A DNA stretch of 28,428 bases from an uncultured Mucilaginibacter sp. (GTDB taxonomy: Bacteria; Bacteroidota; Bacteroidia; Sphingobacteriales; Sphingobacteriaceae), in the NCBI RefSeq assembly GCF_946479965.1, contig NZ_CAMLHX010000052.1:1-28428 (forward strand). The letters run 5' to 3'. Below the pieces are notes generated by a model that saw nothing but the letters and a program-made list of their open reading frames with translations, was not told the DNA's origin and made no database searches. A program made the position numbers and the translations under genes. Positions 4,681 through 27,975 of the stretch are shown here, one piece after another (within the stretch, counting starts at the first letter, position 1; every line of letters starts with the position of its first letter).

Positions 4681-5058
4681 ATGGAGCAGCAAAAACCAAC
4701 CGAGGCCGAAATGGAAGTATTGCTAATACTATGGCAGCTTGGGCAATGTACCGTTAGGCAAGTGCATGATGAATTAGCAAAAAATAAAGACGCTGGCTAT
4801 ACTACCACCTTAAAAATTATGCAAAACATGTTCGAGAAAGGGCTGATAGAACGTGATGACAGCGCCCGCAGTCATTTATATAAAGCGGTTTTTTCACAGG
4901 AGCAGGCACAGCATACCGCCCTGGATAAAATAATAAATACGGTTTTTAAAGGCTCAACTACTGATCTGATAGTGCAGGCCCTTGGTCAGCATCGCGCGTC
5001 AAAAGATGAGATCAATTTTTTAAAGAATTACCTGGAACAGTTTAAATCTGAAAAATAG
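4681..5058 (+). CDS. BlaI/MecI/CopY-family transcriptional repressor
   Basis: 125-residue winged-helix repressor of normal family length. The N-terminal winged helix (about 5-75) shows the family pattern: PTEAEMEVLLILWQLG, TVRQVHDEL, GYTTTLKIMQNMFEKGLIER and the wing SHLYKAVFS. The C-terminal helical part (about 77-125) should dimerise. In the BlaI paradigm the repressor sits on tandem dyads and is removed by proteolysis triggered by the membrane metallopeptidase encoded next door. Two identical dyads lie directly upstream, and the M56 gene starts at the base after this stop codon, so the pair is co-translated. No beta-lactamase or penicillin-binding protein is nearby, so beta-lactam sensing is not indicated. 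Confidence 0.92.
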   Translation: MEQQKPTEAEMEVLLILWQLGQCTVRQVHDELAKNKDAGYTTTLKIMQNMFEKGLIERDDSARSHLYKAVFSQEQAQHTALDKIINTVFKGSTTDLIVQALGQHRASKDEINFLKNYLEQFKSEK

Positions 5059-7230
5059 ATGATGCAATTGCTAATGGATAATATGGGGCAGGTTGTAGGT
5101 ATAACGCTTATCCACTCGTTATGGCAGGGGCTGCTCATTTATTTGGCCTTGCGTATACTGTTTTTGTGTTTCCCTGCGCTTTCTGCCGAAAAAAAGTACC
5201 TCTTTTCACTATCCGCTTTATTTAGCATAGCAATTGTTTTTGTTTACACCTTTATTGCTGAAGTTGATAAATTTGATTGGCAGCCGTCTATTTCTGCAGA
5301 TTATGTGCCTGTTTCCAAACCGATTGACATAACTCATCAAACAGCATACACAGGGTATGCCGACTTAGTCAAGGTCGATTTAGATACTTCAAACACATCG
5401 TTCAATAGTATATTCAAAGCATCGTTACCTTATATAACCTGGTTCTATCTTATTGGTCTTTTTGTCAATATAAGTATGATAGGCATTGCCTGGAACCGGA
5501 TACAGGTCATCAAAAAAAACCTTTGGGACGCGCAATATCTACAAGCTAAAGTAGATGCCTTTTTAGTGCAATTTAAAATAGACGCAAAGGTGCGCGTTAG
5601 TTTTAGCGGGTTAATAGATGTGCCGTGTGTAGTAGGTTATTTAAAACCGATAATACTATTACCTGTAACCTTAACCACACTTTTATCAGCCGAAGAGGTG
5701 GAGTCAATATTACTGCATGAACTTTCGCACATTAAAAATAACGATTATGTGCTGAACCTGATACAGCAGATGGTAAGCGTTTTGTTGTTTTTCAATCCGT
5801 TTGCGCAGCTAATTGGCCGGTTGGTATCAACAGAACGTGAAAACCGTTGTGATGACTGGGTGGTAAGCAAAACAGGTAAGCCGCTTATATATGCCAGCGC
5901 GCTGGTTAAGTTAGAGGAAACCAGGTATGAAGAACTTAGGCTTGTATTGGCAGCAAGCGGTAAAAAGCATTTTTTAAGAACGAGGATAGAGCGCATTTTA
6001 AACAACCATCAATCTGCCAGGCATATCAGGCATTGGTTATTGCTGGTGCTTTTTATCTGTAGTATGGCGTTTTGGTTTTCATTTAAAACGGCTTCTAAAA
6101 CAGAATTTAACTTATTGGGCAAAATATCGGGCGACGTAGAAAGCGTAAGCCTGGCGTATACTAATGAGCAAGGGAAAGCGCTTACGGAGAAGTGTATAGT
6201 TAAAGATGGAGCGTTTTATTTTAACGGACATATCAGTGGGTCGCGGTTGGTTTTTCTTAGTGCCTTTAACTATAAAAACAAGCGGGTCGATGCAAGTTTT
6301 TTCATTGGTCCGGGTGCGGTTACAGTAACCGGAGATTACAATGACCTGGAGCATGTAACCGTACGGGGTTCTGCTGCGCAGGAGGATTATCGGGATTATC
6401 AATTACAAGAAGCTTCATTAAACCGAAATGCAGCCTCACTTATTGCGCAATGGAAGGGGCTTAGAAAAGAAGCGCGACAAGCTATAAAACAGCATAAAAG
6501 TGAAAAAGAGATTTCTTTGATCGAACACCAATTGGAAATAATTTCAGATCAGATAGACCCTTATCGTGGCAAAAAGGAAGACAATGCACGTAATTATATA
6601 AGCAGGCACCCTTACTCCTACGTAAGTGCGCTGCAGCTGATTGTGTATGCCAAGGGCTGGCCAATTGACACTGTAAAAAGCATGTTTAGTAAGTTCGATC
6701 CTGAGATAAAAAGTAGTTCTTACGGCAAAGCCATCAGCCGGATAATACTTGAAATGGACGGCAATGCGCCGGGAACAATGGCCGCCGATTTTAAAGCTCA
6801 GGAGAATGATGGAAAGCAGATACGTTTAAGCGACTTTAAAGGTAAAGTGGTACTGCTCAATTTTTGGACAAGCGTACAACCGCAATTAGATAATACACCT
6901 AACCTTATCACATTATATAAAAAATATCACCAGAAGGGTTTCGATATGATCAGCATAGCTGATGACGATGCAGACCCCGATGCATGGAAAAGATACATCA
7001 AAAAAATGGGTGTTGACCGCCTATGGCACCAGGTTTTAAGAGGGGTTAAATACAATGAGGATGGCCCACCGGATATGACCAACGCTATTGATAAACAGTT
7101 TAATGTAAGCGTTCTGCCAACCCGTATTTTGATTGGGCGGGATGGCGAAATTATAGGCCGCTATATAGGCACAGAAGCAAACGCGGATTTAGATAAAAAA
7201 TTAACCGTGCTATTTGATAAAAAACCTTAA
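5059..7230 (+). CDS. M56 (BlaR1-type) metallopeptidase fused to DUF4369 and a redox-dead TlpA-like domain
   Basis: 723-residue sensor-protease. Transmembrane helices lie at about 12-38, 46-67, 123-147 and 325-342, a BlaR1-like topology. The zinc motif HELSH is at 220-224, with ERENRCDD at 259-266 as the likely third-ligand region. After the last helix the chain should be periplasmic. In BlaR1 a penicillin-binding sensor sits there; here there is a DUF4369-like beta domain (about 349-445), a charged helical stretch, then a TlpA/AhpC-like thioredoxin fold (about 570-720). The usual CxxC is replaced by Gln607-Pro-Gln-Leu610 in the motif NFWTSVQPQL, while the cis-proline motif LPT (686-688) is kept. 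The periplasmic part has a single cysteine (379), so it cannot act as a disulfide reductase and is probably a ligand- or partner-binding sensor. ATG at 5059 follows the blaI stop directly; a second ATG follows at 5062. Confidence 0.9.
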   Translation: MMQLLMDNMGQVVGITLIHSLWQGLLIYLALRILFLCFPALSAEKKYLFSLSALFSIAIVFVYTFIAEVDKFDWQPSISADYVPVSKPIDITHQTAYTGYADLVKVDLDTSNTSFNSIFKASLPYITWFYLIGLFVNISMIGIAWNRIQVIKKNLWDAQYLQAKVDAFLVQFKIDAKVRVSFSGLIDVPCVVGYLKPIILLPVTLTTLLSAEEVESILLHELSHIKNNDYVLNLIQQMVSVLLFFNPFAQLIGRLVSTERENRCDDWVVSKTGKPLIYASALVKLEETRYEELRLVLAASGKKHFLRTRIERILNNHQSARHIRHWLLLVLFICSMAFWFSFKTASKTEFNLLGKISGDVESVSLAYTNEQGKALTEKCIVKDGAFYFNGHISGSRLVFLSAFNYKNKRVDASFFIGPGAVTVTGDYNDLEHVTVRGSAAQEDYRDYQLQEASLNRNAASLIAQWKGLRKEARQAIKQHKSEKEISLIEHQLEIISDQIDPYRGKKEDNARNYISRHPYSYVSALQLIVYAKGWPIDTVKSMFSKFDPEIKSSSYGKAISRIILEMDGNAPGTMAADFKAQENDGKQIRLSDFKGKVVLLNFWTSVQPQLDNTPNLITLYKKYHQKGFDMISIADDDADPDAWKRYIKKMGVDRLWHQVLRGVKYNEDGPPDMTNAIDKQFNVSVLPTRILIGRDGEIIGRYIGTEANADLDKKLTVLFDKKP

Positions 7231-12210: not shown

Positions 12211-12849
12211 TTGAATTATAAAAAAGAGCATATTTTGCCGCTTTGGCAACGTATCTGTTTTAACGATGACGTTAAGGCATTTGAGTCGTTTTACTATTTG
12301 TTGTACGATGCGCTTGTACGGTTTAGTATGATGTATATCCATCAAAGAGAAGAGGCTGAAGAAATAGTAACCAATGTGTTTGTAAAAAGCTGGATAAACC
12401 GGAGCAATATGCAACACGTAGAGCGCCCCGATACTTATTTTTTTGTTGCCGTAAAAAATCAATCATTAAATCATCTTAAAAAATATTCTTCTATTCATGT
12501 TGTTCCTGTAGAAGATTCAGGCGATGTAAATTTGATAGACAATGCCGATCCGCAGTTCCAACTCGAAAAAAAGGAATTGCATTTTTACCTCGATAAATCA
12601 ATAGACGCCCTGCCTCAGCAATGCCGCATCATCTTTAAATTGATAAAAGAAGATGGTTTGAAATATAAGGAAGTGGCAGAGATATTAAATATATCTCCGC
12701 GAACAGTGCAAACGCAATTATTCAGGGCAATGCATAAACTTACCGTTAGTTTGACGGCTTATACTGTGCAGCCTTTGCGCGAGACAATGACCACCAATAT
12801 TATGTCAGGCATTTTAATGACGCTGACTTTTTCAGAAATATTTTTTTAG
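12211..12849 (+). CDS. ECF RNA polymerase sigma factor (FecI-like, Bacteroidota expansion family)
   Basis: 212 residues, the usual length. Region 2 is at about 25-90 (FESFYYLLYDALVRFS, EEAEEIVTNVFVKSW) and region 4 at about 125-178, with LPQQCRIIFKLIKEDGLKYKEVAEILNISPRTVQTQL split by the usual turn. A hydrophobic C-terminal tail (about 197-212) is common in this family. The start must be the TTG at 12211: a stop lies in frame at 12175, no ATG lies between, and the first internal ATG is inside region 2. A non-ATG start behind a hairpin suggests low translation. The gene is followed after 63 bp by its anti-sigma factor and then by susC/susD, the standard surface signalling arrangement. Confidence 0.93.
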   Translation: MNYKKEHILPLWQRICFNDDVKAFESFYYLLYDALVRFSMMYIHQREEAEEIVTNVFVKSWINRSNMQHVERPDTYFFVAVKNQSLNHLKKYSSIHVVPVEDSGDVNLIDNADPQFQLEKKELHFYLDKSIDALPQQCRIIFKLIKEDGLKYKEVAEILNISPRTVQTQLFRAMHKLTVSLTAYTVQPLRETMTTNIMSGILMTLTFSEIFF

Positions 12850-12912: not shown

Positions 12913-14016
12913 ATGATAGAACCACGCTTTGTTGAGTTGCTTACAAAAGATTTGACGGAAGAACTAACTTCTGTTGAAAGGGAAGAACTTGTCCTTTTGT
13001 TACAGCAAAGCCCCCTGCATAAAAAGCAAAGCGCCATTATAAAAGAATACTGGAAGAGCGACAAAACAGAATATAGAACAAGTGCGGCTAACTTCAATAA
13101 ATTAATGGATACGATCCGTGATACGGAGGAATCTGTTAATGGAAATAGCGAAGTTGATGAGGGAAAAGGGTCATATCGATTCTGGCGTTCTGCGCTAAAA
13201 TATGCCGCTGTTTTGATTTTGGGAGCAACATTGTTTTTATGGCATTTATCAGCCCAAAACGGTAAGGAAACGGCTATTGCGGCAAACTGGCAAAACAAAA
13301 CCACTGCGCCGCGGGCTAAAGAGCGACTGATTTTACCGGATAGCTCAATTGTTACGCTTAACTCGGGTACTACATTAACTTATCCGCTTTCTTTCGGCAA
13401 TAAAACCAGGGAAGTATATTTAAATGGTGAAGCTTTTTTTGAAATACATAAAGACCGCGAGCACCCGTTTATTATCCACACAAAAAAAATGAATGTGAAG
13501 GTGCTGGGTACTGTGTTTAATGTCAAATCATACGATAATGCAGCGCAGAGTGAGACATCGCTTATTGAAGGCTCAATAGAGGTAACGCTTAATGAAAGGA
13601 AGGCCGACCGTATTATACTGAAGCCGAAGGAAAAGTTGATCGTCGAAAATAACTCAGTAACACAAACTTTAATAAATAAACCAACCGGCCGTAATATAAA
13701 GGCCATTATAGAGGGAACTACTCAATATTCTCTTACCAATTTAACCTACCTCCCAAATATTGACAGTGCAGCAGTTGAAACCTTATGGCTAAAAGACAAG
13801 CTGGTGTTTAAAAATGAAGACTTTGAATCTATTGCAGCGGATATGGAACGCTGGTATGGTATTCAGATCGTTTTTGAACACAAGGAGTTAATGAATTTAA
13901 GGTTCACCGGAACGTTTGAAAGGAAAACCAACGTTTTGGCGGCGTTTGAATCTTTGCGTACAGCGGAGCATTTTAATTTAAAAAAGAAAGATTTAACATT
14001 TTACATTTCAAAATAA
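12913..14016 (+). CDS. FecR-family anti-sigma factor
   Basis: 367 residues. The cytoplasmic N-terminal sigma-binding part (1-90) is followed by one membrane helix (about 97-113), then the periplasmic FecR domain (about 130-225; RLILPDSSIVTLNSGTTL, GEAFFEI, VLGTVFNVKSY). The C-terminal DUF4974/STN-like domain lies at about 295-365 (KLVFKNEDFESIAADMERWYG). In the FecIRA mechanism the STN domain of the receptor touches the periplasmic part of FecR and releases the sigma factor. The SusC at 14159 carries the matching STN domain, so this is a complete signalling set. A minus-facing terminator follows within 35 bp of the stop. Confidence 0.93.
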   Translation: MIEPRFVELLTKDLTEELTSVEREELVLLLQQSPLHKKQSAIIKEYWKSDKTEYRTSAANFNKLMDTIRDTEESVNGNSEVDEGKGSYRFWRSALKYAAVLILGATLFLWHLSAQNGKETAIAANWQNKTTAPRAKERLILPDSSIVTLNSGTTLTYPLSFGNKTREVYLNGEAFFEIHKDREHPFIIHTKKMNVKVLGTVFNVKSYDNAAQSETSLIEGSIEVTLNERKADRIILKPKEKLIVENNSVTQTLINKPTGRNIKAIIEGTTQYSLTNLTYLPNIDSAAVETLWLKDKLVFKNEDFESIAADMERWYGIQIVFEHKELMNLRFTGTFERKTNVLAAFESLRTAEHFNLKKKDLTFYISK

Positions 14017-14041: not shown

Positions 14042-14074
14042 AAAAAAAACGGGACAACCTAATGGTTAGTCCCG
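14042..14074 (-). terminator. Intrinsic terminator facing the minus strand between fecR and susC
   Basis: On the minus strand, CGGGAC and GTCCCG flank AACC/GGTT with one bulged base and an ATTA loop (14050-14074), immediately followed by eight T (14042-14049). This is a textbook intrinsic terminator for leftward transcription. On the plus strand no T run follows, so it should not stop fecR-susC transcription completely. No annotated minus-strand gene lies upstream of it; the nearest genes to the right are all on the plus strand. Confidence 0.8.
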
Positions 14075-14145
14075 CTCCAATAAGATGACCAATTATTAGT
14101 AACAGCAGATGTTGTTGGCACGGCTACCTGTTGTTATTTCACCTT
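14042..14145 (-). ncRNA. Candidate antisense RNA over the susC leader (DonS-like position)
   Basis: The minus-facing terminator at 14042-14074 needs a leftward transcript. A candidate -7 element TAACTTTA (7 of 8 to TAnnTTTG) lies on the minus strand at 14152-14159, so a start near 14145 would give an RNA of about 105 nt. It would be fully complementary to the susC 5' leader. In Bacteroides fragilis, DonS-type cis-encoded antisense RNAs sit between the anti-sigma gene and the susC gene in loci with the same order. The -33 box is not visible, so the promoter is weak evidence; the terminator and the location are the strong parts. Confidence 0.4.
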
Positions 14146-14158
14146 AATTCCTAAAGTT

Positions 14159-17100
14159 ATGAAAATATTTATGCACTCGCGGAGTGTATCGGAAAAATTT
14201 TATCTATTTAAGCGTCTGTTAATAATGAAACTGACACTATTTTTTATATTGATTTTTAACATCGGGGCGTTTGCAAATGTTTTTTCGCAAACCACAATTT
14301 CCCTTAATTTAAAGGATGCCGATCTGGACAAAGTGATTGAAACTATCCAAAATAAAAGTAGTTATCGGTTTGTTTATAGCAACTCAAAAACGCTTACAGA
14401 CAAAAAGATATCTATAAAGGCGGATAACGCGAACCTTACTGACGTGCTTAACAAAGTATTTAGCGAAATGGGCCTCGTTTACAAGGAAATTGACAATCAA
14501 CTGGTATCAATTGCCCGGGCGGATGACATGGCAGCTTACAATGCGGGCCCCCAGCAAGGTTTTAGGGTATCCGGTCAAGTTACTGACGAGGGTACGGGCG
14601 AAACCCTTATTGGTGCGACTGTTAAGGTAAAAGGCACCACCAATGCTGTTGCGGTTGACATTAATGGTAGATTTACATTGGATGTGCCAAATGCCAATTC
14701 AATTTTAGTGGTGCAATTTATTGGTTATACCGACCAGGAAGTGCCGATAGAGGGCAAAAAAGTGCTTGACGTTAAGTTGGCAAAAGTAACGCGTAACTTG
14801 GATGAAGTTGTTGTTACAGGCTTTGGTTTAGGCCAAAGGAAGGCTACACTTTCCGGGGCTGTTTCACAAATTAGCGGCGAAGAACTATCACACTCAAAGG
14901 CAACTTCAGCTTCAGGTGCATTGATAGGTAAAGTGGGTGGGGTTAACTTTAGGCAAACTACCGGCAGGCCGGGAGCAACACCAACAATTCGTGTACGTAA
15001 CTTTGGCGGCGATCCTCTTATTGTTATTGATGGTACAAGGCGTAACATGGATGCCTTTAACGCCCTTGACTATAATGATATTGAATCAGTAAACATTCTA
15101 AAAGACGGCTCGGCTGCTATTTACGGTTTCGACGCAGAAAACGGTGTAATAGTTGTAGTAACTAAAAAAGGTAAACGCGGCCAAAAGCCAACTTTCGGTT
15201 TTGATACTTATTATGGTACCCAAGCTTATACTAATTTTGCTAAGCCGGGCGATGTAAAAAGTTATATCAAAGGTATAGTACAAACCGAAACTTATGGTGA
15301 CGGCAGACAAAGTGTTCCCAGTAGAACTATAACCCCGGAAATCTATCAGAAATTTATGAATGGCGATCCGGGTTATGAAGGATTTGACTGGTATAAATAT
15401 ATATATAAAAGTGCGCCACAATACTCAGCAAAACTCTCTGTTTCTGGTGGAACAGAAAACTCAGACTATTATATTAGCGGATCTACCTTATCTCAAGGTG
15501 TAGCCTTGCGCGACTTTGGTGATGGTTTTAAACGCCAAAATATACAAGCCAATTTTAATGCTAATATTAGCAAGCGTATTAGATTTGGTATGCAAATGAA
15601 CGGATACTGGTCAAAACAATCAAATACCAATGTTCCGGGCGATGATTTTGGCTGGCAGGCCGAAGCGCCATATCGTAATTTACCGGTACTACCGGGGTCA
15701 GGTTCGCCGTATTCTAATCCGGTATCAGGTCCGTACGCTAATGGTAACCCTTTGTACCCTGCAGTTACATCTCCTTCTGATTTCGGATACAGCTATGGTT
15801 TAGTAAATCCTGAATTGCAAGGAGTAGAATCAACCACCAGGAGAAATGTTTCAATAAACGGTAACTTAGAAGTAGACATTGTTACCGGCTTAAAGGCACG
15901 TATGCAGGCCAACTACTCATTCCTGAATGATCAGTTCGATTCGCGCCGTTTATCACCTCAATTATACGCATATAATGCTGCAACAGGTAACTATGATGCA
16001 GATCCATATTCTGCACAACGTAATGTTCAGCATACTTATTCAAATACTGACAACACTTCGCTTATATTTCAGTTGGAGTATCAAAAGTCAATAGGTAAAC
16101 ACAATTTCAAAGCAACTGCCAGTCAAAGTTTCGAGCAGAGATATGCGCCGTCTATATCGATAACCGGTACACCTCCGGCTAATAATATCGCTTATATACC
16201 AAATACACTTACCTATCTTACAGCTTTTAATGATAACATTAGTAACTATGCACCACGTCAGGGTTATATAGTAAATGCAAATTATGACTTTGCAGGAAAA
16301 TATATTATTGAGGGTCATGGACGTTATGATGGGTCATCTGACTATAGACCAGAGAAAAGATGGGGATTCTTCCCGGGCGGGTCAGTAGCTTATCGTATCT
16401 CTCAGGAAGATTTCTGGAAACAAAGCGCAGTACTAAGCATCTTTAACGATTTTAAGATCAGGGCATCATATGGTATTATACCTTTCAATACCGGAGAAAA
16501 CTGGTTAACGGGTTATAATTATTCTCAAGGCTCAGCAATACTAAACGGTGCTCAGGTTACCGGTGCACAGGTAAGAGGACCCGGATCTACTGCGCTAACC
16601 TGGGGAAAAACCTACAATAGTGATATCGGTATTGACATGAGCTTGTTAAATAGCCGGTTAAGTATTACTCTAGATTATTTTAATAAAACCCGTACAGGTA
16701 TTCCCGGAAACCGAGGCGTAACTTTACCTGCTTTAGTGGGTTTTCAGGCGGGTGACGAAAACATAAATACAGATAAAAATCGCGGTGTTGACGGTAACAT
16801 TTCATGGCGTGACCGTATAGGCGACCTAAGTTATGGCTTTAACGGTAGCTTTAGCTATGGCAGAAGTATAACAGGTTTCCGTTACGGAGATCTTTATTCC
16901 AGTGACTATAGCAGATTTCGCGGTAATGCCGTAGACAGATTAGGTGGTGGACCATTTCAATTCACAACTACCGGACAATTTCAAAGCTGGGAACAAATAC
17001 AGAACTACGGTATTGACCAGGATGGCAAAGGTAACGTTACCCTGCGCCCCGGCGATTTTATATTCAAAGATACAAATGGTGATGGTGTGATAAACTCCCT

Positions 17101-17683
17101 TGACCAGGAAAGAGTGACCTATCAAGTAAATGGTGGTCAAAACGGTCAGGGTGTGCCAATATTTGGTTTTGGCTTTGGTTTTAACGCGGCCTATAAAGGG
17201 TTTGACTTTAGGGTTGATTTTACAGGTGGTTCATTGTTTACGTTTCAACAATCGTCTTCGGGTTTTAGCAGTGCTAATGGCGCCTATTTGCGCGAGTGGT
17301 TACCAGGCAGAAACACATCACAGTATTTATTTGATAACTCAAGCTATTATTCTGACCCATTTGACAGAAACAGCACTATTATAGTAGGTAAGTACCCGTT
17401 GCTTTTACAAACAAATCCTGCACCTAATACAAATTTTGATCACAACGGATATCAAACCAACATAACCTATGTTAAAGTACGTAATATAGAAATAGGTTAC
17501 ACCATACCATACGCTGTTTTAAAACCTTTGGGTATATCTAACTTAAAGGTATATGTAACAGGCCAAAACTTGTTCAGTTTTTCAAATATGCCTGGCAAAT
17601 TTGATCCTGAACTTTCAAATGGCAGCGGTGGCGGATTGCCTAACCCAAGGGTTTTAACCGCAGGCGTTAACGTTAAATTCTAA
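14159..17683 (+). CDS. SusC/RagA-family TonB-linked outer membrane transporter with STN signalling domain
   Basis: 1174 residues. The long N-terminus before the signal peptide (hydrophobic core from Met23, cleavage near VFSQ, 41-44) is typical of FecR-linked SusC proteins; an alternative ATG lies at 14225. The order is STN domain (about 50-118), carboxypeptidase-regulatory-like domain (about 135-207), TonB-box-like DEVVVTGFG (215-223), plug (about 225-336, with SALIGKVGG-type and DGSAAIYGFDAENGVI motifs) and the barrel to the C-terminus (GVNVKF). It forms the barrel of a SusCD 'pedal-bin' importer, with SusD as lid. The STN domain couples substrate binding to the FecR upstream. The plug has DGSAAIYGFDAENG, slightly different from the common DASAAIYGSRAANG. 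The substrate is unknown: no enzyme genes are linked. Confidence 0.95.
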   Translation: MKIFMHSRSVSEKFYLFKRLLIMKLTLFFILIFNIGAFANVFSQTTISLNLKDADLDKVIETIQNKSSYRFVYSNSKTLTDKKISIKADNANLTDVLNKVFSEMGLVYKEIDNQLVSIARADDMAAYNAGPQQGFRVSGQVTDEGTGETLIGATVKVKGTTNAVAVDINGRFTLDVPNANSILVVQFIGYTDQEVPIEGKKVLDVKLAKVTRNLDEVVVTGFGLGQRKATLSGAVSQISGEELSHSKATSASGALIGKVGGVNFRQTTGRPGATPTIRVRNFGGDPLIVIDGTRRNMDAFNALDYNDIESVNILKDGSAAIYGFDAENGVIVVVTKKGKRGQKPTFGFDTYYGTQAYTNFAKPGDVKSYIKGIVQTETYGDGRQSVPSRTITPEIYQKFMNGDPGYEGFDWYKYIYKSAPQYSAKLSVSGGTENSDYYISGSTLSQGVALRDFGDGFKRQNIQANFNANISKRIRFGMQMNGYWSKQSNTNVPGDDFGWQAEAPYRNLPVLPGSGSPYSNPVSGPYANGNPLYPAVTSPSDFGYSYGLVNPELQGVESTTRRNVSINGNLEVDIVTGLKARMQANYSFLNDQFDSRRLSPQLYAYNAATGNYDADPYSAQRNVQHTYSNTDNTSLIFQLEYQKSIGKHNFKATASQSFEQRYAPSISITGTPPANNIAYIPNTLTYLTAFNDNISNYAPRQGYIVNANYDFAGKYIIEGHGRYDGSSDYRPEKRWGFFPGGSVAYRISQEDFWKQSAVLSIFNDFKIRASYGIIPFNTGENWLTGYNYSQGSAILNGAQVTGAQVRGPGSTALTWGKTYNSDIGIDMSLLNSRLSITLDYFNKTRTGIPGNRGVTLPALVGFQAGDENINTDKNRGVDGNISWRDRIGDLSYGFNGSFSYGRSITGFRYGDLYSSDYSRFRGNAVDRLGGGPFQFTTTGQFQSWEQIQNYGIDQDGKGNVTLRPGDFIFKDTNGDGVINSLDQERVTYQVNGGQNGQGVPIFGFGFGFNAAYKGFDFRVDFTGGSLFTFQQSSSGFSSANGAYLREWLPGRNTSQYLFDNSSYYSDPFDRNSTIIVGKYPLLLQTNPAPNTNFDHNGYQTNITYVKVRNIEIGYTIPYAVLKPLGISNLKVYVTGQNLFSFSNMPGKFDPELSNGSGGGLPNPRVLTAGVNVKF

Positions 17684-17695
17684 AATATAAGAACC

Positions 17696-19750
17696 ATGAA
17701 AAAGAAATTTTTATACAGTCTATTTGCACTCTTTTTAATAAACACCATGTTTATTGGATGTAAAAGAGACCTAACGGTTGTTCCGAACAGCCTGCAAACA
17801 GCAGATGATGTTTTTACAGATAAGAACCTGATCACCGCAGTGTTGGCACGCTTCTATTCGCAAGTTAACCAGGTAACTAACCCTCCTGGTAATCCCCCCA
17901 ATTTTACTCCCGGAGGTGCTGCCTGGGGCGCAAGTAACGCTACTGATGATAGTTTTCAACAGGATCCTGATGATGCTGTCAATAATAGGGGCGGAGCGTC
18001 TGCTCAGCAAGTTGCCTTCACCAAAGACAGGTACAGGGCCTTTGATTATGGCCTTATACGCAGAATAAACCAATTTTTAATTGGCATACGGTCTGAAGCT
18101 GCAAAAAAAGCGATGACCCCGTTTGAGAATGCGTCCTTTGAAGGACAAGCTATGTTTTTACGTGCCTGGACTTTTTTCCACATGGTAAAAACTTTGGGTG
18201 GTTTGACCATTGTAGGTGACGAGGTATTTGAATTTGCGGGCGGCACAGATGCAACGCCACTGCAAAAACCACGCGACTCAGAAGAAAAATGTTATGATTA
18301 CATCCTGGATCAGTGCGACAAAGCAGCTGCAAAGTTGACCAATGGCGGGATAGCAACTATTCCGGCCGGACAAAATGCTAACGCTGCTTTGGCTAACAGG
18401 TGGGCATGTAAAATGCTTAAAGCGCGTGCTGCTTTAACTGCGGCTTCAATTGCCAAATGGAATAACGGCAACGTTAATCTTAACAAAACGGATAAATTGG
18501 GCGTTCAAACCCATGGTATACCTGCAGCTAAAGCTGATGCTTATTACAAGGCGGCTTTCGACGCTGCTAAAGAAGTTATTGACGGTGGTGCTTACTCAAT
18601 AATGAAAGGGACCGATCTGGCATCAGCACAACAGGCATTTCAAAACGCGATAAATATAAAAGCCGGTAATACCGAAGTAATATGGACAGCAGATCGTCTA
18701 TTGCCTAACGTAAATACCACATGGACCAGGGTTGTTGGCCCTGTAACCCATACAGAAGAAGCTTTAGGTAATCAATTGGGTGCAGGTGCTGAGTTTGTTG
18801 AATCGTTTGAAGATAGAGCCACTCGTGCCCAAGGTATAAAAACCAGAACCGGTACGGGAGATGCAGTTGGTGTAACTGGTCCGGTAACTAGTGGTGCAGG
18901 TCTTATTGGTACTACACCGATCATGTATGACTTGTCAAATCCGGCTGATAATCCATTTATGCAAAAGGATGCCCGTTTATATGCATCAGTTATATGGCCT
19001 CAAGCTCCGTTCAAAGGTATCCCGGTAGATCTGCGTGCAGGTGAGTGGCGCGGTGAGTATAATTCCGACGGCACGCTTAAGGTTTATACCTCTGCCCCTG
19101 CACCAAAAGGAACTGCCGGTACTTTTCTTACCAGTATAAACGGACCAGCTGAGAATACCAGTCAAATTGTAAATAAAACAGGTTTTATCCCCCGCAAATG
19201 GCTTGACGAAAAACCCGGTGCCTCGCTGGGACCAAACTATAGCGATATGTGGGTAATACGTTTCCGTTTGGCAGAAGCGTATAGTATATGTGCTGAAGCC
19301 GCTTTATTAAGCGCTCCGCTAGGTGGGGCAGCCGTAGGTGTTAATTATATTAACGTTTTAAGGAGCCGTGGTTTACTTCAGCCGCTTAGCGCCGGTCAAT
19401 TTGACTTTGAACAGTTAAGAAAGGAACTACGCGTTGAATTTTATATGGAAGATCACCGTCTTTGGGACATGAACAGATGGAGACTGGCGGATTCATTTTG
19501 GGACGGTGTAACCTGTGGAAAATGTTCACTATATCCAAATGGTACGTCATTTCCGTGGCAATTATATGGTTACACTGTAAATATTGCAGGCAATCCTGGT
19601 GGTAATAACGGTAAATATGTATTTGAAAGAAAAAGGGCTTTCAGAAAAAGAGCTAATCCCAATTACTTTGAGAGTTCAAGCTATTATTCAACTATGGACA
19701 ATGCATGGTTAACTTATAACCCAAATTGGGAAAGAAATCCAGGTCAGTAA
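17696..19750 (+). CDS. SusD/RagB-family outer membrane lipoprotein
   Basis: 684 residues, on the long side for the family. The signal peptide ends in the lipobox MFIGC (Cys22), so the protein is surface-anchored. The family pattern is visible: the N-terminal DLTVVPNSLQTADDVFTDKNLITAVLARFY split by the usual loop, the RAFDYGLIRRINQFL helix, FLRAWTFFHMVKTLGG, and a C-terminal RKELRVEFYMEDHRLWDMNRWRLAD segment matching the conserved SusD end. It covers the SusC barrel and captures substrate. It lies 12 bp after susC, in one operon. The insertion around residues 330-500 makes it larger than many SusD proteins and may shape the binding site. Confidence 0.95.
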   Translation: MKKKFLYSLFALFLINTMFIGCKRDLTVVPNSLQTADDVFTDKNLITAVLARFYSQVNQVTNPPGNPPNFTPGGAAWGASNATDDSFQQDPDDAVNNRGGASAQQVAFTKDRYRAFDYGLIRRINQFLIGIRSEAAKKAMTPFENASFEGQAMFLRAWTFFHMVKTLGGLTIVGDEVFEFAGGTDATPLQKPRDSEEKCYDYILDQCDKAAAKLTNGGIATIPAGQNANAALANRWACKMLKARAALTAASIAKWNNGNVNLNKTDKLGVQTHGIPAAKADAYYKAAFDAAKEVIDGGAYSIMKGTDLASAQQAFQNAINIKAGNTEVIWTADRLLPNVNTTWTRVVGPVTHTEEALGNQLGAGAEFVESFEDRATRAQGIKTRTGTGDAVGVTGPVTSGAGLIGTTPIMYDLSNPADNPFMQKDARLYASVIWPQAPFKGIPVDLRAGEWRGEYNSDGTLKVYTSAPAPKGTAGTFLTSINGPAENTSQIVNKTGFIPRKWLDEKPGASLGPNYSDMWVIRFRLAEAYSICAEAALLSAPLGGAAVGVNYINVLRSRGLLQPLSAGQFDFEQLRKELRVEFYMEDHRLWDMNRWRLADSFWDGVTCGKCSLYPNGTSFPWQLYGYTVNIAGNPGGNNGKYVFERKRAFRKRANPNYFESSSYYSTMDNAWLTYNPNWERNPGQ

Positions 19751-26382: not shown

Positions 26383-27975
26383 TTATCTGTTATTTTTCTT
26401 TGCTACGATTTTTATAAGGAGTTTAACATCGTCAGAAATAGTTAGATCACCATTCTTGTCAAAGAACTTTTCTGATCTGTAATCGATACCCCAATCTGTT
26501 CTATCAATTATCAGCGTGCCATTCAACACCACGGTTCCGTCCATCCCGTCCTTAAAATGCATTATGGCCGGAAAAGTAACTGCCTTCGTAATACCTTCCA
26601 TGGTCAGGTTCCCGCTAACTTTTATAGTCGCGACAGCTTCAATGGTCATGTTCCCGTTCCTACCTTCAGTTTTTCGATCATTTACTGTTTCAACCTTTGT
26701 AATTGAGAATGTAGAAACAGGGACTTTTTTGATATCAAAAAAGTCTGGTAATTTATTGTGTGGACGTTGATCTTCAAATTTTTGTTCAATTGTATTCATG
26801 TCAACTTCAACAGCGCCGCCCACCAAGCGACGGTTTTCGATCAACAATTCTCCTTTTAATAGATCCACGTCCCCCGTGCCGGCATCATCACCAAGTAGCA
26901 TAGAACCTTTCCAAATCACAACACTTTGCTTCGTATCTATGATATATTTTTTCTGCCCCTCTTTATTATAGAAGTCCGTGATGGTCTTTCCATCATAACG
27001 ATAAGCTCCCGTGGCAGATCCAAACCAAATACTTCCATCGTTAGCTTCCAAAAGGCCCAAAAAAGCGTCTCCTGCCATAATTTCGGCTACAGTAGGCTTA
27101 TTACTATACAAGGACATTGCATCATAACGTGAGAGCGCCCAGACCGCCACATGAGCAGAATTTACCGGCCCGGTAGTCCAGATGTTTCCTTTTTTATCTT
27201 CGATTATAGCATGAGTTCCTCTTTCCGATACATTAGTAAAGGTACTGCCGTCATAGCGCCAAAGGCCGTGGGTTACGTCACCAAGCCAAATATTGCCTTT
27301 TCTATCTTCTATTATACTCCAAACGTTTGTAAAGGTTTTGCCCTTATGTATCAACGGGGTAAATGTTTTCCCGTTATAAACGAAAGCGTCGCCCCTTGTT
27401 CCAACCCATAATTTCCCGGTTTTATCTTCAATGATGGTAGTAATATCATTATTCCAATTTCCTCCTTTATAAACACGCGAGGGGTTCGGATTTTTAAAAT
27501 TTCGAAAAGATTTTCCATCGTAACGGCTTATTCCGTCTCCGGTGCCGAACCAAATAATGCCGGCTTTATCTTCATAAACAGACATAACCCGATTATTGGC
27601 AAGACCCTCCGTGGTAGTAAAATGTTGAACGGATTTGCCATTATAATAATAAACGCCTGAATCGGTAGATGTGAACCAAATATTTCCCAGTCTATCTTCC
27701 AGTACATCCAGAAATCTGTACGAACCTATTTTACTTGTAAGATTAGTAAAAGATTTTCCATCGTATCGAAAAACATCACCGAATGATGAGTTGTTCGGGC
27801 CGGCAATCAAAATGGTCCCATTTCTGCCCTTTTTTATACTACGAACCATTATGTTAGGCCCTATGTCTTTAATTTCGGTATTGATATTATCTATTGGTAC
27901 GTTTGTTTGATTTTGTCCAAAGGAAGTGAGAAAAACAGAAATTAAGAACAAAGCATATACGTGTATATATTTCAT
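26383..27975 (-). CDS. Secreted seven-bladed propeller fused to a YceI domain
   Basis: 530 residues with a type I signal peptide ending near TSFGQ (residue 21). Seven propeller repeats follow (about 43-337), each of the form IxEDxxGxIWxGTxxGxxRYDGKxF, enough for one closed propeller as in the sensor part of hybrid kinases. The remainder (about 343-526) is a YceI domain, a lipocalin-like barrel that binds long polyisoprenoids: YIIDTKQSVVIWKG, GGAVEVDMNTIE, LPDFFDIKKVPVSTF, GNLTMEGITKAVTFP, DRTDWGIDYRS. No membrane helix or kinase follows, so it is a soluble periplasmic or secreted protein. It converges with the hybrid kinase, whose sensor is the same kind of propeller. I know of no described protein with this domain pair; a search is needed to tell how rare it is. 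The intact frame and both complete domains argue against an assembly artefact. Confidence 0.9.
   Translation of the reverse strand: MKYIHVYALFLISVFLTSFGQNQTNVPIDNINTEIKDIGPNIMVRSIKKGRNGTILIAGPNNSSFGDVFRYDGKSFTNLTSKIGSYRFLDVLEDRLGNIWFTSTDSGVYYYNGKSVQHFTTTEGLANNRVMSVYEDKAGIIWFGTGDGISRYDGKSFRNFKNPNPSRVYKGGNWNNDITTIIEDKTGKLWVGTRGDAFVYNGKTFTPLIHKGKTFTNVWSIIEDRKGNIWLGDVTHGLWRYDGSTFTNVSERGTHAIIEDKKGNIWTTGPVNSAHVAVWALSRYDAMSLYSNKPTVAEIMAGDAFLGLLEANDGSIWFGSATGAYRYDGKTITDFYNKEGQKKYIIDTKQSVVIWKGSMLLGDDAGTGDVDLLKGELLIENRRLVGGAVEVDMNTIEQKFEDQRPHNKLPDFFDIKKVPVSTFSITKVETVNDRKTEGRNGNMTIEAVATIKVSGNLTMEGITKAVTFPAIMHFKDGMDGTVVLNGTLIIDRTDWGIDYRSEKFFDKNGDLTISDDVKLLIKIVAKKNNR

Follow-up and report, generated by a model that had tools for sequence, protein, structure and literature searches.

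The 142-nt gap between fecR and susC in a 28,428-nt stretch of DNA from an uncultured Mucilaginibacter sp. (the whole analysed stretch, here called the window) very likely encodes an antisense RNA on the minus strand. We consider it probable that this RNA is a cis-antisense RNA of about 100 nt, of the type of DonS of Bacteroides, that pairs with the susC leader and keeps susC low. The computed support consists of a terminator hairpin, a T run, a promoter motif, strand-specific folding across a family of related elements, recurrence of the layout, and restriction of the layout to fecR loci; from it we infer transcription, pairing, repression, and threshold behaviour of the RNA, with repression of susC in particular being expected by analogy with Bacteroides. 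The features of the locus, with the basis of each assignment, are:

12211..12849, plus strand: ECF sigma factor gene (Pfam Sigma70_r4_2, 1.3e-15)
12913..14016, plus strand: fecR, anti-sigma factor gene (Pfam FecR, 3.5e-16; FecR_C, 5.4e-17)
14042..14147, minus strand: predicted antisense RNA of about 98-106 nt (fold; layout recurring in relatives)
14042..14049, minus strand: T8 tract of the terminator (sequence)
14050..14074, minus strand: terminator hairpin of 10 pairs (6 GC) with one 1-nt bulge and an ATTA loop (sequence, terminator detection, fold)
14081..14146, minus strand: 5' domain of the RNA, with a closing stem that pairs 14139-14146 with 14081-14088 and an inner hairpin at 14100-14136 (fold)
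14152..14159, minus strand: -7 box TAACTTTA, whose TA shares position 14159 with the A of the susC ATG (sequence, profile)
14159..17683, plus strand: susC, with an N-terminal STN domain (Pfam Plug, 6.4e-15; CarbopepD_reg_2)
17696..19750, plus strand: susD (Pfam SusD_RagB, 8.6e-28)

The sigma factor gene, fecR, susC, and susD all lie on the plus strand, and the STN domain of the window SusC scores 5.7e-6 and 26.5 bits, slightly below the Pfam cut-off of 28.4. The original prediction, made from the sequence before this analysis, had placed the antisense RNA where no minus-strand gene exists, and this is borne out: FecR and SusC are both encoded on the plus strand, and the ORF list of the window contains no minus-strand ORF of at least 100 aa covering the gap. 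No Rfam family matches the gap at gathering score (the sole match in the window is a tRNA at its right end), and none matches 18 related loci at gathering score.

On the minus strand, positions 14074 to 14050 read CGGGAC-T-AACC-ATTA-GGTT-GTCCCG. The minus-facing terminator with a 10-bp stem, a four-base loop, and eight T that had been claimed is seen here, together with a 1-nt bulge that had gone unmentioned; a simple terminator scan missed the hairpin, probably since it does not allow bulges. Terminator detection found no plus-facing terminator in the fecR-susC gap of the window. The predicted RNA would have its 5' end near 14145-14148, as placed by the -7 box, and its 3' end within the T run, in agreement in strand and length with the RNA of about 105 nt antisense to the susC leader that had been proposed. 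The minus-strand RNA from 14147 to 14042 (106 nt) folds at -32.0 kcal/mol (z -3.8), a value equalled by 0/200 shuffles. The 5' domain of the window taken alone does not fold better than shuffles as minus RNA (-12.9; z -0.4) and folds better as plus RNA (-16.7), making the window one of 3/70 elements whose 5' domain folds better as sense. Because the window is exceptional in this respect, the evidence for the window copy is its terminator, its promoter, and its context.

Minus-facing terminators are present in 81 of the 121 gaps of 80 nt or more downstream of fecR (a set that omits shorter gaps and duplicates), and plus-facing terminators are present in 6/121, as compared to 1.2 and 0.3 in dinucleotide shuffles. 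The proposed check on the antisense RNA was whether the hairpin and its T run are conserved among related fecR-susC gaps; they are conserved in 81 of these gaps and missing from the other 40. In gaps of 40-500 nt from 40 stretches of 20 kb of G269, a genome of the family draw around a Flavisolibacter genome, plus the window, minus-facing terminators occur in 29/41 fecR>susC gaps vs. 10/114 x>x gaps and 1/33 x>fecR gaps (Fisher p 8e-14 vs. the 114), and plus-facing terminators occur in 2/41, 28/114, and 1/33 gaps, respectively. A chance hairpin was rejected on the basis of the shuffles and the control gaps. By genome, minus-facing terminators are found in 28/37 gaps of G269, 5/7 of G271, 5/6 of G178, 4/5 of G405, 2/4 of G333, 3/3 of G358, 1/1 of G366, and 0/2 of G326, in the window itself, and in 22/39 single loci from other searches. 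They are found also in 10 of the 16 gaps of 80 nt or longer that were fetched from G399, a genome that carries Bacteroid-trp RNA (RF01692), a marker that gives only a hint of a Bacteroidales genome. In a class-wide draw of one locus per genome from 29 genomes, a terminator is found in 8/14 gaps of at least 80 nt and in 0/15 shorter gaps. There was no next gene in 2/63 loci of the set that includes the class-wide draw and in 3/59 loci of the set that includes the G399 gaps, and no FecR frame in 1/60 fetched loci.

The consensus of Bacteroidota housekeeping promoters is TTG at -33 and TAnnTTTG at -7. The window box, TAACTTTA, matches 5/6 fixed bases of TAnnTTTG, differing in the final base (the final G is absent). 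With a profile trained on other genomes, window excluded, it scores 14.2 bits, the top of 56,788 window positions on both strands, and no other position reaches that score; the near-consensus minus-strand -7 box that had been reported at 14152-14159 is present and is the best match in the window. The motif fitted to the 81 elements reads, on the minus strand, CATAnnTTTG, with nn unconserved, and its TA falls on the A of the start codon in 51/81 elements. The distance from motif to hairpin has a median of 71 nt (IQR 63-80, range 44-120) in the family and is 85 nt in the window. The best promoter score exceeds the maximum of shuffled sequences in 75/81 elements, and a score of at least 10 bits near the start is found in 75/81 gaps with a terminator (the training set), 13/40 gaps without one, and 4/329 control gene starts. 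The family shows no visible -33 box, perhaps owing to overlap with the sequence coding for the SusC N-terminus.

The context of the start codon was considered as the source of the motif and was rejected: in the fit, positions -2 and -3 are free and positions -1, -4, and -5 are fixed, with T(-1), A(-4), and A(-5) on the sense strand each at 0.96 or more, frequencies that are biased toward the motif by the selection of the best match during fitting. Such a pattern is a better fit for TAnnTTTG than for a translation context. The form CAAANNT-ATG is found at 11/41 fecR>susC starts vs. 0/254 x>x, 0/36 x>fecR, and 0/38 susC>x starts (0/328 controls), the looser context T-1, A-4, A-5 is found at 10/246 other ATG starts vs. 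13/20 with an element, and the motif form is kept where the ATG is displaced by 4 nt (L040, L089, L113).

For the 70 elements that were folded (the 81 less 11 with low promoter score or unsuitable length), the 5' domain is stabler as minus RNA in 67 and less stable in 3 (p 2e-12). The pairs that close the 5' domain number 12.7 on average vs. 6.1 in shuffles and are at least 5 in 66/70 elements, and the predicted RNA length in the family has a median of 93 and a 10-90% range of 82-122. A MAFFT/RNAalifold consensus of 67 RNAs failed (-3.4 kcal/mol) because the length of the 5' domain is too variable, and single folds and z-scores, with no covariance model, were therefore used. The 5' ends of the sister RNAs in G269 have a common GTTTNGGTT-like motif. 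Cross-pairing of 25 G269 RNAs with other susC leaders is weakly above shuffles (-22.8 vs. -20.2 kcal/mol), a difference that is not taken as proof.

The main rival to an RNA that acts by pairing is that antisense transcription itself acts, through polymerase collision or occlusion from the start-codon promoter, with the RNA as a by-product. The position of the promoter motif on the susC start codon, facing the sense polymerase, and the position of the terminator, which would halt antisense transcription before fecR, both fit this rival; however, it does not require the observed selection on the RNA fold of one strand, and we regard it as unlikely, although more credible than any other alternative. 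We favour the DonS-type RNA that pairs with the susC leader.

The antisense element is tied to fecR-controlled susC and not to susC generally. In a held-out scan of both strands of 800 kb of G269, with a profile trained off G269, the combination of terminator and promoter occurs 31 times. Thirty of these occurrences are antisense, each in its own gap among 46 that follow fecR; the 31st (L090 at 19641), judged by coordinates, comes 157 nt after a FecR_C match that is truncated at the end of its stretch. For 29 susC loci from SusC searches, the combination is found in 3/3 loci with an upstream fecR and in 0/26 loci without fecR, where fecR was sought inside each locus only (1.5 kb upstream; 4 kb for L001) and where the 26 include G001 twice (L001, L008). 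Among the SusC relatives retrieved, the one closest to the window SusC (about 73-76% identity) comes from a Flavisolibacter MAG, and relatives of the window SusC that are 62-76% identical have no STN, no fecR in the locus, and no antisense element. Since the nearest relatives (L001/G001, L009/G173) have neither fecR nor element, the window element is without an orthologous comparison. The window SusC has the STN domain, with sigma/fecR upstream and the antisense element, while L001 and L009 have no STN domain, no fecR in the locus, and no element, and the signalling front end seems to have been gained or lost as one unit. The strand, the promoter at the susC start, and the length fit the DonS-type reading put forward in the original prediction, which is refined here in that the link is to fecR-controlled susC.

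These results also bear on the proposal that the hairpin is a mere insulator that keeps stray antisense transcription from susC out of fecR and the sigma factor gene. Such an insulator would be a minus-facing hairpin just behind fecR, as observed, and minus-facing hairpins with no promoter motif are present in 3/26 fecR-less susC loci. It would not account for a promoter motif at a narrow distance from the hairpin, for a folded 5' domain, or for the absence of terminator and promoter together from all 26 fecR-less loci, and we consider it improbable as compared to a DonS-type RNA.

The assignment of the RNA to the minus strand is further indicated by G-U pairs. For 76 stems, from a stem search that treats both wobble kinds alike and requires the minus T run, G-U pairs are possible solely on the minus strand in 78 cases and solely on the plus strand in 10; 26 ordinary sense terminators show a G-U bias of 20 to 3 to their own strand. 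Folded as minus RNA the elements have a mean z of -2.75, and folded as plus RNA one of -0.70, as compared to -0.43 (minus) and -0.75 (plus) for 107 control leaders, and perfect stems picked strand-blind have an A run before them in 24/36 cases and a T run after them in 0/36. The proposal that the gap holds a sense leader structure of susC (an attenuator, a translational switch, or an mRNA stabiliser), with the minus T run incidental, draws on the window, where the sense strand reaches -38.7 kcal/mol (z -2.7) and where its 5'-domain stretch outfolds the minus RNA. It is made very improbable by the family-wide G-U asymmetry toward minus, by sense z-scores like those of control leaders, by the lack of T runs after strand-neutral stems, and by the lack of an Rfam family. 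A chance terminator confined to the window is the least credible alternative: minus-facing terminators do appear in 10 of the 114 x>x gaps, but the window terminator stands in the expected locus type and coincides, 85 nt away and within the family range, with the best promoter position of the window.

To the gaps compared above can be added pattern searches in whole genomes, which return the same context. The hairpin pattern has 21 matches in four whole genomes, 21/21 antisense behind fecR. A looser hairpin pattern matches 48/294 genomes of a family draw, with 132 matches in total (summed rows) and 0 for a reversed control pattern. The context was checked for 30 of these matches, from 30 genomes (3 shared with the four-genome count): 29/30 lie behind fecR, 28 of those 29 also precede a susC-like ORF, and 24/30 have a promoter motif of at least 8 bits.

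Named species contributed 13 fecR-susC gaps with a length of 100 nt or more, of which 7 have both the hairpin and the promoter motif (P. distasonis L197, L199, L218, and L221; B. finegoldii L212, L216, and L220), 1 has the hairpin only (P. massiliensis L198), and 5 have neither by the detector (L196, L200, L202, L209, L214). The motif lies on the annotated susC ATG in 4/7 (L197, L199, L218, L220), the motif of L216 scores 7.4 bits, below the 8-bit line applied elsewhere, and L221 folds better as plus RNA. By eye, L200:2369-2528 (Haliscomenobacter hydrossis plasmid) has, instead of two short hairpins, a single long antisense-facing hairpin with a T run that the detector missed. None of the named loci outside the 13 has an element; these were excluded for a gap <80 nt (L203, L205, L210, L213, L215), for a fecR that touches the receptor gene (L208), for a fecR parted from susC (L207, L217, L219), for an unresolved susC start (L204, L211), or for having no upstream fecR (L195, L201, L206). 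For L211, the B. fragilis fecR locus, this result applies to the 436 nt searched. The element is present in 0/15 loci (among L115-L134) and in 0/5 named loci in which fecR almost abuts, or overlaps, the following gene, and FecR/receptor pairs seem to come in two architectures. Short called gaps with an element are found in 3/9 cases in G269, and a minus-facing hairpin is present in the short called gaps of L152, L165, L179, and L182; both are ascribed to start codons called too early.

Short, folded cis-antisense RNAs that are fully complementary to a leader operate in plasmid copy control of the CopA/CopT type. The window RNA would, as likened by description, share these properties with CopA/CopT; CopA/CopT is not known to be linked to a sigma/anti-sigma pair.

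According to the available part of one report, DonS-type RNAs of Bacteroides measure 78-128 nt, are encoded divergently to susC homologs, and reduce the expression of these homologs (PMC7366714). As given in accessible portions of other reports, 15 PULs of B. fragilis have such antisense RNAs (PMC9723704), the annotation of B. thetaiotaomicron has 32 PUL-associated cis-antisense RNAs, with antisense/PUL correlations that are negative in some cases and positive in others (PMC10994844), and DonS represses its susC in Bacteroides by a mechanism that is not known (PMC11697453). The window RNA is alike in being predicted to be cis-antisense and divergent to susC in a susC/susD locus, in the locus order sigma, anti-sigma, susC, susD, in a predicted length of about 98-106 nt, within 78-128 nt, and in having a rho-independent terminator, and 7 of the named Bacteroides and Parabacteroides loci show the same layout as the window. 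In a comparison by position, predicted length, and locus order, the window RNA would belong to the DonS kind. The window RNA differs in lying outside Bacteroides, and the elements are here defined by a promoter on the start codon, a two-hairpin fold, and dependence on fecR. In Flavobacterium psychrophilum, also of the Bacteroidota, the transcriptome contains antisense RNAs over CDSs, none of which is linked to fecR-susC gaps or to this structure in the available part of the source (PMC9723704). The accessible part of PMC12632263 holds nothing on susC antisense RNAs, and a literature search by title and start of abstract, with few subscription journals covered, returned no report of susC antisense RNAs outside Bacteroides. 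The DonS-type RNA kind is already known; the spread to Chitinophagaceae, the start-codon promoter, the fold, and the FecR link, as read from genome sequence, are the additions made here.

According to the mechanism that we propose, a housekeeping-type promoter with its -7 box on the susC start codon would start the minus RNA ~14 nt upstream of the ATG, and the RNA, comprising the 5' hairpin domain and the terminator hairpin, would stop before fecR. The whole RNA would be complementary to the susC leader, nearly reaching the start codon; because it would cover the leader to ~14 nt before the ATG, pairing with the leader is its likeliest act. Such pairing might block ribosome loading, target the susC mRNA for decay, or both. 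The T run ends at most 30 nt from the fecR stop in 16/81 elements, and this proximity, together with the scarcity of sense terminators, suggests that transcription from fecR may continue into susC; the RNA would then pair also with leader read through from sigma-fecR. In this way the antisense RNA would hold the costly transporter off without preventing production of sigma and FecR. Upon release of the ECF sigma factor, strong sense transcription would rise above the antisense level, titrate the antisense RNA, and cross its promoter.

As a possibility that we advance tentatively and hold to be somewhat less likely than its opposite, the antisense RNA may be a permanent fourth component of the ECF sigma / FecR / STN-SusC cassette, inherited since before the Bacteroidales/Chitinophagales split and present in tens of copies per genome, with G-U pairs allowing one stretch of DNA to specify both an antisense RNA that folds and a leader that stays open and is easy to translate, and with sister RNAs that have a common 5' motif perhaps cross-talking between receptors of one cell. 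G269 has 110 FecR_C matches, and members of the Bacteroidota that have dozens of sigma/FecR/SusC sets are predicted to operate matched antisense brakes by the dozen. The promoter on the susC start codon, the folded 5' domain, and the terminator behind fecR provide a searchable definition for DonS-type RNAs, and the same layout is present in a family draw around the Flavisolibacter genome (Chitinophagaceae). The mechanism is easy to test, as the -7 box can be disrupted without touching coding sequence.

Elsewhere in the window, a BlaR1-type M56 peptidase with a C-terminal thioredoxin-like domain is encoded at 5059-7230 (plus strand) and is preceded by a penicillinase-repressor-like gene at 4681-5058, and a single protein encoded at 26383-27975 (minus strand) combines two-component propeller repeats (Reg_prop) with a YceI-like domain.
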